Source: an uncultured Tateyamaria sp. (GTDB taxonomy: Bacteria > Pseudomonadota > Alphaproteobacteria > Rhodobacterales > Rhodobacteraceae). Taken from it: DNA of 64,000 bases. The notes beneath the pieces are model-generated. The model searched no databases. It was not told where the DNA came from and was given only the letters and a program-made list of their open reading frames with translations. Positions 59,887-63,515 of this stretch are shown piece by piece. A program made the translations under genes and the position numbers. The stretch is from NCBI RefSeq assembly GCF_947503465.1, contig NZ_CANNDN010000001.1:930001-994000 (forward strand). Direction: 5' to 3'. Positions within the stretch are counted from its first letter, which is position 1, and each line of letters starts with the position of its first letter.

Positions 59887-60378
59887 TTATTCCATGTCCC
59901 CGTCCAGATAGGCAGACGGGTCAAGGTCCGGGTCGAACCCCTCGTCATCGAGCACCGCAATACTTTCGTCATAGGCGTCGGGCTGCCAGATTTCGAATGT
60001 GTCACCGGAAGAGACAAAGCGCGCCATGCCATCAAGGCCGATCTTTTCCCGCAACTTGGCCGGCAGCACGATGCGGCCTGTGTCATCCACAACCGTTTCG
60101 ATGGACTGTGCGCTATACAGCCGCTCCATCGCCTTCCGCTTGGCGGAACCGCGTGGGAATTTTGCAATCTTGTCGTCCACCTCGTCCATGGCCTCGATCG
60201 TGAAACCTTCGAGGTAGTCACGGGTCGCCCCGCCATAGACGATGATGATGCGGGGCGGCAGGCCTTCCGTCCACTCGGGATCGCAGGCCTCGATCACACG
60301 ACGAAACGAGGCCGGGATAGACACCCGCCCCTTTGCGTCCACCTTGTGGTCGCTTTCGCCTCTGAACCTGCGTGCCAC
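59887..60378 (-). CDS. mraZ: transcriptional regulator MraZ
   Basis: A 163-aa DNA-binding protein with two AbrB-like repeats ([17 protein letters not shown] and [18 protein letters not shown]) that controls the dcw operon. I place the start at GTG 60378, giving [14 protein letters not shown], in line with Rhodobacterales MraZ; AAGGGAC lies 11 bases upstream. The next ATG-type extension upstream has no conservation. It is one base from rsmH. Confidence 0.93.
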
Positions 60379-60480
60379 CTGTTGGCCCGTCCCTTGTTTT
60401 TCCGTCGCGCCCCCGCGCCTTTTCCGTCCCCAGTCACCGCGGCCCTCTTGCGGGACCTGTTGGCTGCCCTTCGAAGGGCT

Positions 60481-60690
60481 GAAATGGAAACGGCGGGTTG
60501 ATCTGCTGCCACTGATCAACCCGCCGCCCTCGTCCCGCCTTGCGGGATGTCCAGCTGCGCGCGCCACCTGGGGGGATGTCTGCTCGCTCGCGCGCCGGAT
60601 CTCTGGTCTGATGAAAGCGAGGTGCCTGTATGAAACCTGCTAGAGTTTTGTTTTTTGCTTGGGGTCGTTTGCTGCCCCGTGCTCGTTCTC
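60481..60690 (-). ncRNA. UpsM-like sRNA in the mraZ leader
   Basis: The leader of mraZ is over 300 bases long. It contains a perfect 13-bp stem: CGGCGGGTTGATC (60491-60503) and GATCAACCCGCCG (60514-60526) around a 10-base loop, followed on the minus strand by TTTCCATTT. A second hairpin TCCCGC-CTT-GCGGGA lies at 60533-60547. In Rhodobacter sphaeroides the dcw leader gives an abundant sRNA, UpsM (about 200 nt), ended by a hairpin before mraZ. Position and layout match here; the 5' end is a guess set by length. Confidence 0.55.
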
Positions 60691-61078: not shown

Positions 61079-61420
61079 CTAATCGGCCAATGCGTAGATA
61101 AAGGCCACCACGGTCCCGGCATCCGTTTCGATCGGCACAGCGACACGTGCATAGCCCGGCCCCTCGAACGCATCCAGTCGGGACCAATGATCCGGCAAGT
61201 CTTTCGAATGGAGCAGGTGGACCTCAACCTCGGGTCCGTTTGGGTCAAGGATCAAGCCGGGAAACCCCATCTGAGCGCCCCACCCGGCTGCCTTGAGATG
61301 ACCGCGGACGCGACCGAGCGACCATTTGCCCTGTATTCCCTCAAGCTGATCCGCATTGGCACGACCCGGCGCCAATGTGCCATAGGTCGCCAAACGGTGC
61401 CCGGGATCGGATGAGGTCAA
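61079..61420 (-). CDS. gamma-glutamylcyclotransferase-like (GGCT) protein
   Basis: A 113-aa protein. LATYGTLAPGRANADQLEG is the N-terminal YGxLxxG substrate-binding loop, and SRLDAFEGPGYARVAVPI (with the catalytic-type Glu) and VVAFIYALAD complete the GGCT-like fold. The start is TTG 61420, which overlaps the mrp stop (TTGA), implying coupling; no better start exists. It may act on gamma-glutamyl amines or glutathione-like substrates. Confidence 0.85.
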   Translation of the reverse strand: MTSSDPGHRLATYGTLAPGRANADQLEGIQGKWSLGRVRGHLKAAGWGAQMGFPGLILDPNGPEVEVHLLHSKDLPDHWSRLDAFEGPGYARVAVPIETDAGTVVAFIYALAD

Positions 61421-62490
61421 GCCATACCACCTTTGATCAACCCGTCGGCAATACGTGCGTAGGCTTGCGCCATCGGGCCGTCACCCGCAGCAATCGGGGT
61501 ACCGCCATCCCCAGCCAGTCGGGTTTCAAGATCGATTGGGAGCGCGCCCAAGAGAGGCACACCCATCTTTTCGGCCTCCGCCGCCACACCGCCCTGACCA
61601 AAGATCTGATGCTCCGCCCCGCAATCGGGGCAGACAAACATCGACATGTTCTCGATCAGCCCCAGCACCGGGGTCTTCAGCGTGGCAAACATATCCAGCG
61701 CCTTACGGGCGTCGATCAGAGCCACATCCTGCGGCGTGCTGACGACAATAGCGCCGGTCAGTTCGGACTTCGTACACAGCGTCAGTTGCACATCGCCCGT
61801 CCCCGGCGGCAGGTCGACCAGCAACACGTCCAACTCGCCCCACTCAACCTGCCCCAGCATCTGCTGCAAGGCGCCCATCAGCATCGGGCCCCGCCAGACC
61901 ACGGCCTTGCCCTCTTCCAGCATGAAACCGATGGACATCAAAGTGACCCCATGGGCTTGCAGCGGAATGATGGTCTTGCCATCAGGTGATGCGGGGCGCT
62001 TGTTGACACCCATCATCCGGGGCTGGGACGGTCCATAGATATCTGCATCCAGCAAACCCACCTTGCGGCCCTGCTTGGCCAGCGCCACGGCCAGGTTGGA
62101 CGATACGGTCGACTTGCCCACGCCCCCCTTGCCGGACCCGATGGCCAGGATGCGCTGGACACCCGACGGCTTGGTTGGCCCCTCTTGCGGCTTGGGATGA
62201 CCACCGATCTTCAGGCTGGGCGGCGCCGCGGGCTTTGGCGCAGGCCCATGGGCCGTCAACGCCACGCGCGCCTCCGCCACCCCTTCCATATCGCGCACCA
62301 TCTTTTCGGCGGCTGCACGAATGGGCTCCATCCGCGCGGCCATCTCGGGCGTTGGCGCTTCGATCACAAAGTGCACGGCATCGCCCTGCACCTGAACCGC
62401 CCGAATCAAATCGCGGCTGATCAGGTCCCCCCCGTCCGGCATTCCGATGCTGGCCAGTGCGTCCATGACATTTTGTTTCGTGACGGCCAT
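61417..62490 (-). CDS. Mrp/ApbC-type Fe-S cluster carrier ATPase
   Basis: A 357-aa P-loop NTPase. The N-terminal ~90 residues form a MIP18-like domain; IGSGKGGVGKSTVSSNLAVAL is the deviant Walker A; MFVCPDCGAEHQIFG holds the CPDC pair that binds a bridging [4Fe-4S] cluster. It delivers Fe-S clusters in the cytoplasm. ATG at 62490. It is divergent from the DUF1127 gene, with a 224-base gap. Confidence 0.95.
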   Translation of the reverse strand: MAVTKQNVMDALASIGMPDGGDLISRDLIRAVQVQGDAVHFVIEAPTPEMAARMEPIRAAAEKMVRDMEGVAEARVALTAHGPAPKPAAPPSLKIGGHPKPQEGPTKPSGVQRILAIGSGKGGVGKSTVSSNLAVALAKQGRKVGLLDADIYGPSQPRMMGVNKRPASPDGKTIIPLQAHGVTLMSIGFMLEEGKAVVWRGPMLMGALQQMLGQVEWGELDVLLVDLPPGTGDVQLTLCTKSELTGAIVVSTPQDVALIDARKALDMFATLKTPVLGLIENMSMFVCPDCGAEHQIFGQGGVAAEAEKMGVPLLGALPIDLETRLAGDGGTPIAAGDGPMAQAYARIADGLIKGGMA

Positions 62491-62621
62491 GCTCGAATTC
62501 TCCGCGTTATGGCGCAAGAAATGGCACATTCCACGTCAGAGGCAAGGGCCCGCCGACTGCCCCGGCGTAAACGCCGCATCCTTGTGCGACTTGCCCAGCA
62601 ATTCAACCGCAGGCCTATGCA

Positions 62622-62681
62622 AATGCTGCATGGCAGCATTGAATTGGTGTGCATTGTGCACCCGCAGCATTGGCTTATATT
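62622..62681 (+). promoter_or_regulatory. candidate promoter with palindromes before the DUF1127/CcsR unit
   Basis: TTGTGC (62654-62659), 16 bases, TATATT (62676-62681) makes a plausible promoter. AATGCTGC-ATG-GCAGCATT at 62622-62640 is a perfect palindrome; GTGCA-TTG-TGCAC (62649-62661) overlaps the -35; GCAGCATTG recurs at 62633 and 62664. In Rhodobacter the homologous unit is driven by RpoH-type sigma factors; which factor acts here cannot be read. Confidence 0.5.
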
Positions 62682-62714
62682 TGGGTCAACGAAATGAGCA
62701 TGAGGCAAAAAAAC

Positions 62715-62945
62715 ATGGCCTATTACAATGATGTAGCACAGCGCAGCGATCTGGTGGAACGTATCCTCGGCTCCGCTGCACGTGTTTTCCAAGCCGCTGC
62801 AGAGCGTCACGCGAAACAGCGTATCTTCCGCAGCACCTTTACCGAGCTGAACGCTTTGTCGAACCGCGAACTGGCCGATCTGGGCCTGCACCGGTCCGAA
62901 CTCAAGCGCGTGGCCTGGGAATCTGCAAACGGCGAAACCGCCTGA
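62715..62945 (+). CDS. DUF1127 protein, CcaF1-like
   Basis: A 76-aa protein. Its C-terminal half RSTFTELNALSNRELADLGLHRSELKRVAWE is the DUF1127 motif. In R. sphaeroides the DUF1127 protein encoded directly upstream of the CcsR RNAs is an RNA-binding factor (CcaF1) involved in their maturation; here the same arrangement is present. I chose ATG 62715 (MAYYNDV), though ATGs at 62694 and 62700 are in frame. The basic surface (KQRIFRS, RSELKRV) suits RNA binding. Confidence 0.9.
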   Translation: MAYYNDVAQRSDLVERILGSAARVFQAAAERHAKQRIFRSTFTELNALSNRELADLGLHRSELKRVAWESANGETA

Positions 62946-62960
62946 CACGAAACACACGAG

Positions 62961-63038
62961 ATCAGATGGCCCTCTCCTCCTCCCTGGGGCATCTGAAATT
63001 GGCGGCGGCGCCTTCCTCCTCCCTGGCGTCGCCGCACC
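62961..63038 (+). ncRNA. CcsR-like (cuckoo) RNA 1
   Basis: Two hairpins. The first pairs CAGATG/CATCTG (62963-62968, 62990-62995) with CCTCCTCCC at 62976-62984 in its loop. The second pairs GCGGCGGCGCC with GGCGTCGCCGC (63002-63012, 63025-63035; one wobble) with CCTCCTCCC at 63015-63023 in its loop. Two CCTCCTCCC loops per RNA is the mark of the CcsR family, whose loops are anti-Shine-Dalgarno-like. It begins 16 bases after the DUF1127 stop. Confidence 0.88.
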
Positions 63039-63050
63039 TTTAACACCGCG

Positions 63051-63139
63051 ATACATCGCTGCACCGGTCCTCCTCCTCCCTGACCAGCGCGATGTTGCAA
63101 GGGCGGCGGCATTCACCTCCTCCCGAATGTCGCCGCACG
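63051..63139 (+). ncRNA. CcsR-like (cuckoo) RNA 2
   Basis: The first hairpin has ACATCGC/GCGATGT (63053-63059, 63089-63095) and an inner GGTC/GACC, with CCTCCTCCC at 63072-63080. The second pairs GCGGCGGCATTC with GAATGTCGCCGC (63103-63114, 63125-63136; one wobble) with CCTCCTCCC at 63116-63124. The first stems differ between copies, but the second stem is shared with RNAs 1 and 3, which points to tandem duplication. Confidence 0.88.
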
Positions 63140-63165
63140 AATACCGCACCACACCGGTGCGTCAG

Positions 63166-63252
63166 ATTGCCTGACACGGTCTTCCTCCTCCCTGACCGCG
63201 GGCATGAAGAAGGCGGCGGTTCCCTCCTCCGGGGGATCGCCGCTTTTTCTTT
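63166..63252 (+). ncRNA. CcsR-like (cuckoo) RNA 3 with terminator
   Basis: The first hairpin has CGGTC/GACCG (63177-63181, 63194-63198) with CCTCCTCCC at 63184-63192. The second pairs GCGGCGGTTCC with GGATCGCCGC (63213-63243, wobbles) around CCTCCTCC-G at 63223-63231 (one base off the motif), and is followed directly by TTTTTCTTT. This makes it the terminator of the whole unit. R. sphaeroides has four copies; three are seen here. Confidence 0.86.
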
Positions 63253-63515
63253 GTGGCACTCCAAAAAATCGCACCAAACCTGTCACAGCACGGTCCCCCG
63301 GCACGTCACTTCCCATGACACCGGCAAGGAAGGGACGACATGCTGTGCATTCCGTGGAAAATACGGGGCCCGTTTCATCGAACAGGTGGCAGGACATGCG
63401 TCCTGCCCATGGCGCGGCAGCGCCTCCCCCAGTGTCTGCGCGGCATACCTCGCCCGCGTCCGTACTGGACAAGCCCTGCCATCGCATTCTCAATACCCCT
63501 CAAGGAGCCTACGCC
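63253..63515. other. intergenic stretch with one palindrome
   Basis: Between the last CcsR RNA and the next gene. GGCAGGAC-ATGC-GTCCTGCC (63388-63407) is a perfect 8-bp inverted repeat, an operator or hairpin candidate. A small frame at 63340-63513 has no ribosome site or family look. Nothing else is supported. Confidence 0.45.

Follow-up and report, generated by a model that had tools for sequence, protein, structure and literature searches.

Introduction

A gene for a small DUF1127 protein, ccaF1, is co-transcribed in R. sphaeroides with the CcsR RNAs and the transcript ends in a 3′ terminator. According to the available part of the same source (PMC10253847), the RNAs are processed by RNase E together with the DUF1127 protein and the ccaF1-CcsR operon has an RpoHI/RpoHII promoter. 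The level of ccaF1 is very low in the stationary phase of the wild type (PMC11354728, available text). For the RNA NfeR1, silencing of two mRNAs that encode periplasmic components of ABC transporters is reported (PMC10746234, available text).

The available part of PMC12542648 describes PhaR as a repressor which PHB granules attract as PHB accumulates, gives its R. sphaeroides site as CTGCNNNGCAG and reports that the S. meliloti mmgR site, CAATTGTGCACCGCAGCATTA, is efficiently bound by PhaR; the regulated mmgR dyad is placed within the -35 and -10 boxes in a review (PMC8401924, available text). A literature search found no link of PhaR or PHB to CcsR, CcaF1 or DUF1127 loci, and none is made in the accessible portions of PMC9230146 and PMC11354728; the papers that first described CcsR, CcaF1 and cuckoo were outside the scope of that search and may mention one.

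A DUF1127 gene followed by three two-hairpin RNAs

The window, by which we mean the whole stretch of 64,000 nucleotides analysed, corresponds to C1:930001-994000 of a 4.1 Mb genome. Near its end a CcaF1-like DUF1127 gene of 76 aa is located on the + strand at 62715-62945, stop codon included (62715-62942 without it), and its product scores 37.5 bits against Pfam PF06568 (cut-off 23.3). The gene is small and lies directly upstream of the aSD RNAs on the same strand, as in the CIN1/CcaF1-CcsR layout. Searching named genomes with the protein returned five loci, and the four in which 93 or more of 98 residues are covered, at 89-91% identity, are all from Tateyamaria, to which we therefore assign the genus of this genome. 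The minus-strand ORF upstream of the locus (61417-62529) carries Mrp-like words; another minus-strand ORF, at 59887-60567, resembles MraZ by eye.

A sequence-only reading of 62622-63252 had described six hairpins here, joined pairwise by a common GCGGCGG stem into three RNAs, with five exact loops and a sixth altered one ending in a T run. All of this was borne out. The exact loop CCTCCTCCC is present on the + strand at 62976, 63015, 63072, 63116 and 63184; for these five copies within 62976-63192 the expected number is 0.53, and none of 100 shuffles reached five. The sixth loop is CCTCCTCCG (63223-63231), its hairpin being followed by T5. GCGGCGG is found in hairpins 2, 4 and 6, and matches of the CcsR1 model fall on three two-hairpin units of the + strand: aSD RNA 1 (hairpins 1 and 2; 62958-63040; 52.5 bits), aSD RNA 2 (hairpins 3 and 4; 63054-63141; 28.4 bits) and aSD RNA 3 (hairpins 5 and 6; 63166-63248; 28.0 bits). 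Folding of 62946-63256 gave -148.1 kcal/mol (z = -8.7), and equally low values were reached by 0 of 100 shuffles. In this fold hairpin 6 is the terminator of aSD RNA 3, with CCTCCTCCG partly paired, and a T-rich tail occupies 63244-63252 on the + strand. The locus has hairpins in tandem whose loops carry CCUCCUCCC, a mark of CIN1/CcaF1-CcsR loci, five of the six being exact.

No part of the window matched Rfam at the gathering threshold. The covariance search proposed in the sequence-only reading did give matches of the CcsR1 and ar14 models at the locus, all of them below the gathering scores: the best value for CcsR1 (RF02791) is 52.5 bits against 65.3, and those for ar14 (RF02344) are 46 and 33 bits against 58.8. 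The locus is for this reason not assigned to RF02791. Sub-cut-off CcsR1 scores are the rule in the family, where a CcsR1 match with an E-value no higher than 1e-6 is present in 135 of 198 genomes and only 9 reach the cut-off. Elsewhere in the genome the next best CcsR1 match has an E-value of 0.115; this and all worse matches were dropped because 12 of 14 control genomes also match at E up to 10. As regards the proposed CcsR/cuckoo-type identity, layout, loops, DUF1127 gene, terminator and model matches agree with it (PMC10253847, available part), and membership of RF02791 or RF02344 by gathering score does not follow. We conclude, with great confidence in the RNA locus itself, that it is of the CIN1/CcaF1-CcsR type by layout and not an RF02791 member by score.

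Comparison within the genus

Nineteen loci of the genus were compared; the twentieth genome, G019, gave no match in a CcsR1 search at E 0.01. Six hairpins are present in 13 loci and four in the other 6, that is, three versus two units. Copy number, which had been put forward as a point of difference, was accordingly discarded as a distinguishing feature, three units being common in the genus. The altered last loop is real and private to this genome, CCTCCTCCC being retained in 17 of the 19 loci (CTTCCTCCC is found in G010), and a new function for it is unsupported. At a locus in another genome (L071, G208) at least 16 tandem aSD motifs follow a single DUF1127 gene; four two-hairpin RNAs would give eight hairpins.

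In the alignment of RNA 1 from the 19 loci (18 distinct rows) the paired cells amount to 97.0%, and changes on both sides are seen at 6 of 22 pairs. Neither value was equalled in 500 shuffles, a control that may be inflated by related rows, and the number of further pair types was reached by 20 of 500; pairing falls to 52% or less when the partners are slid. This apparent covariation supports the two stems of RNA 1. It also bears on the view that the hairpins are mere stable 3′-UTR or terminator repeats with no regulatory role. Such a view can point to the last hairpin, which is a terminator, but the stems covary while the loops stay, the loops are kept across the 19 loci, and in R. sphaeroides the related RNAs are produced by processing (PMC10253847, available part). 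We regard it as very improbable.

A bipartite element with PhaR-type dyads

Upstream of the DUF1127 gene there is a bipartite element at 62616-62680, which lies partly inside the 62622-63252 region of the sequence-only reading and was absent from its description. All of its parts are on the + strand. It starts with the palindrome TATGCA-N5-TGCATG (YATGCR-N5-YGCATR; 62616-62632), which overlaps PhaR-type site A, TGCTGCATGGCAGCA (CTGC-N3-GCAG; 62624-62638). Site A fits the published R. sphaeroides site and is located upstream of the predicted -35. PhaR-type site B, ATTGTGCA-CC-CGCAGCAT (62653-62670), overlaps the predicted promoter, read from the sequence as TTG-N17-CTTATAT (62654-62680), so that ATTGTGCA..GCAGCAT stands between the predicted -35 and -10. 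Given as ATTGTGCACCCGCAGCAT, site B is a near copy of the mmgR site (PMC12542648, available part) with a spacer one base longer. The putative DUF1127/aSD operon promoter thus carries the CTGC-N3-GCAG dyad expected of the PhaR regulon.

A phaR gene is present in the genome (TIGR01848, 147.8 bits; cut-off 109.45). The pattern TGCTGCA-NN-GCAGCA occurs with zero mismatches in four places: at this promoter, at C1:1535946 before a second aSD hairpin (see below), and twice at C2:54762-54803, between a phaC gene and the phasin gene and upstream of the latter. With one mismatch it is also found at the start of phaR. Allowing up to one mismatch gave 33 rows, many of which are both strands of one palindrome, versus 1 row for the reversed pattern.

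An alignment revealed a strongly conserved block ahead of the DUF1127 start. A strict pattern of the element, GCATNGCNGNATTG-N8-14-ATTGTGCANNNGCAG, was found in 94 of 198 family genomes at 97 places (three genomes have it twice) and is absent from the remaining 104; the reversed control gave 0 of 198. The sequences around 30 of these places were retrieved: aSD motifs lie downstream in 29 (the exception is L092) and a DUF1127-like ORF, sought with a rough pattern, in 25. These 30 loci served for training a weight matrix, which gives the element a score of 74.8-84.5 in every one of the 19 genus loci. Applied to 28 RNA-model loci, which were the top-scoring RNA-model matches and not a random draw, the matrix gave at least 49.9 in 26, the best control (reverse strand or shuffled) being -6.0. 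With ten loci of other genera added, 35 of 38 comparison loci score at least 40; this set includes L102 (from G209, which has no PhaR match) and leaves out L037, which belongs to another family. When the ten of these that had served in training are removed, 28 untrained loci are left, all from PhaR-positive genomes and L102 not among them, and 25 of the 28 score at least 40. The loci from PhaR-positive genomes that score below 40 are L014, L115 and L122. In five loci (L108, L111, L113, L119 and L121) the distance from the end of the element to the first aSD loop is 47-62 nt with no DUF1127 gene between; there is no room for one, which indicates that the element goes with the RNA.

Decay of the element in near-complete genomes without PhaR

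Of 395 family genomes that are near-complete, 386 have PF07879 and nine, from seven genera, lack it. Among these nine, aSD-RNA loci are present in two pairs of congeneric genomes, G022 with G411 and G193 with G469, and in G337. The set leaves out G379, whose weak RF02791 match (24.6 bits) is without CTCCTCCC, and the weak matches L153, L154, L156 and L157 (in G022, G411 and G193), which are also without it; the RF02791 search found nothing in G133, G179 and G310. Upstream of the G022, G337, G193 and G469 loci there is still a GKGGVGKS word from an Mrp-like protein, as in the locus under study, and none was seen upstream of the G411 locus.

All five PhaR-less loci, from three genera, score 14.4 or less for the element and both dyads are gone. 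The comparison of 5 of 5 decayed PhaR-less loci with 25 of 28 intact untrained loci gives a Fisher value of 2.4e-4 by locus and 0.004 by genus. The YATGCR-N5-YGCATR palindrome is retained in the same five loci, and TTG and an AT-rich -10 region are still readable there. Survival of the palindrome makes at least one further factor likely, and suggests that a second factor reads this palindrome.

These results can be set against the explanation that we are dealing with an ordinary CIN1 locus under stress sigma factors alone, the conserved upstream block being simply their promoter. That the R. sphaeroides operon has an RpoHI/RpoHII promoter (PMC10253847, available part) and that a TTG-N17-CTTATAT register is readable here both agree with it. 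However, many of the invariant columns of the element are TGC/GCA dyads outside the promoter hexamers, and it is these dyads that have disappeared from the five PhaR-less loci while the promoter-like bases remain. We therefore consider control by stress sigma factors alone unlikely.

The 198-genome sample contains seven genomes without a TIGR01848 match, and the strict element is present in two of them, G141 (84% complete) and G209 (71% complete; element score 80.6). It is possible that in both cases PhaR is on a missing contig. Among genomes at least 90% complete the strict element is found in 0 of 4 without PhaR versus 80 of 170 with PhaR, a difference which alone proves nothing.

The retained element in these two incomplete genomes raises another explanation, namely that a different transcription factor reads the TGCA-rich element and was lost along with PHB storage; the PhaR-less loci span three genera and other regulators may have been lost together with storage. 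The persistence of the palindrome in the five PhaR-less loci would fit such a factor, as would the base before the right GCAGCA of site A, a purine (A or G) in all 30 training loci as against Y in the S. meliloti PhaR consensus. Against it stand the match of site A to CTGCNNNGCAG, the resemblance of site B to the PhaR-bound mmgR site (PMC12542648, available part), and the dyad carried by the phasin gene and phaR of this very genome. This explanation, too, appears to us improbable. A link with PhaR, to which the motif, the dyad shared with the pha genes and the decay in near-complete genomes without PhaR all point, is in our judgement quite probable.

Candidate targets and a second aSD hairpin

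The pattern GGGAGGAG-N4-10-ATG occurs in 17 places of the genome and its reversed control in 1. Four places were set aside, three because their ORFs do not exceed 27 aa and one because it lies antisense to the locus under study, leaving 13 usable. Six of these 13 are starts of solute-binding proteins (two DctP, SBP_bac_1, TctC and two Peripla_BP_6). The others belong to a response regulator, an alcohol dehydrogenase, an IclR regulator, an acyl-CoA dehydrogenase, a GFO/IDH oxidoreductase, a flavocytochrome c sulfide dehydrogenase and one protein without a Pfam match. For the control Shine-Dalgarno pattern, AAAGGAGA-N4-8-ATG (spacer of 4-8 bases as against 4-10), 38 places were found and 34 were usable after removal of four with ORFs under 50 aa. 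No solute-binding proteins were recognised among these 34, ten of which were classified by Pfam and the other 24 by translated start and length (the longest has 232 aa, which is short for this class of protein). The candidate targets are thus enriched for solute-binding proteins (6/13 versus 0/34; Fisher 1.6e-4).

There are 13 other CCTCCTCCC places in the genome, and only the one at C1:1536105 is in the loop of a hairpin with a T run behind it. This hairpin terminates a leader that has ANTAR and NMT1_2 genes on one side and another NMT1_2 gene on the other; we take these genes to be nasT-nasS-nrtA. In this leader locus (L132, G000:C1:1535500-1536700) the PhaR-type box at C1:1535946 precedes the CCTCCTCCC terminator loop. 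The leader was matched in 13 of 20 genus genomes; CTCCTCC is kept in the loop in 13 of 13, and a CTGC-N3/4-GCAG box is located 118-167 nt before the loop in 11 of 13. As a CcsR1 hairpin it scores 13.4 bits only.

Discussion

From the computed anatomy, family resemblance, element conservation, decay in near-complete PhaR-less genomes and target-type enrichment we derive the following model. A single transcript would encode the small DUF1127 protein and yield, on cleavage, three two-hairpin RNAs, which may pair through their CCUCCUCCC loops with GGGAGGAGG-type Shine-Dalgarno sequences and so block translation. The two PhaR-type sites at the predicted promoter, one upstream of the -35 and one between the -35 and the -10, would act as operators: without stored PHB, PhaR would occupy them and presumably keep the operon down; once PhaR is captured by newly formed PHB granules, the operon would be released and the RNAs would damp the synthesis of nutrient-uptake proteins. 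In this model we infer the promoter, that PhaR binds there and with which sign it acts, the processing of the RNAs, and silencing. Taken as a whole, this chain of a CIN1-type operon repressed by PhaR, released by PHB granules and damping uptake proteins is somewhat favoured by what we have found. The strongest points against the PhaR link are G141 and G209, the purine of site A, the extra spacer base of site B, the low scores of L014, L115 and L122, the RpoH control in R. sphaeroides and the low stationary-phase level of ccaF1.

A wider proposal is that of a family-wide carbon-satiety circuit, in which granules would remove PhaR, aSD RNAs would shut the ribosome sites of uptake proteins, and the nitrate-assimilation leader of the genus would be wired in, so that through one aSD code carbon storage would be coupled to the uptake of both carbon and nitrogen. 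The leader is included because its PhaR-type box and its terminator with a CCUCCUCC loop are found repeatedly within the genus. We offer this circuit tentatively and hold it to be rather doubtful.

As an RNA locus it belongs to a known kind. The novelty, if the model is true, would lie in a main switch upstream, a widely conserved operator tying a family-wide aSD-RNA operon to the PHB regulator PhaR. It would give a physiological reason for the operon (storage full, uptake down) and explain part of the promoter conservation, and the role of CIN1 would become simply testable in R. sphaeroides or Tateyamaria.

Among described systems the locus resembles CcaF1-CcsR1-4 of R. sphaeroides (CIN1; RF02791) in its DUF1127 gene, RNAs, 3′ terminator and model matches, and its two-hairpin RNAs with aSD motifs are like the CcsR RNAs (PMC3927594, available text). 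It differs in having three RNAs instead of four, an RF02791 score below gathering and an altered last loop, and also in its PhaR-type operator, the available text on R. sphaeroides mentioning an RpoHI/RpoHII promoter alone. Hairpins with CCUCCUCCC loops are shared with NfeR1/alpha-r14 (RF02344) and the cuckoo family; NfeR1, however, is described in the text available as having three hairpins and its own promoter, and the ar14 score here is 46 against 58.8. MmgR (alpha-r8) of S. meliloti is likewise a small RNA, repressed by PhaR/AniA, and its promoter site nearly matches site B, but in the part of the source available it is a single 77-nt RNA of another family. Finally, phaP promoters under PhaR (PMC12542648, available part), and the phasin gene of this genome itself, have two dyads in the promoter region as does the locus described here, with different spacing and centre bases.
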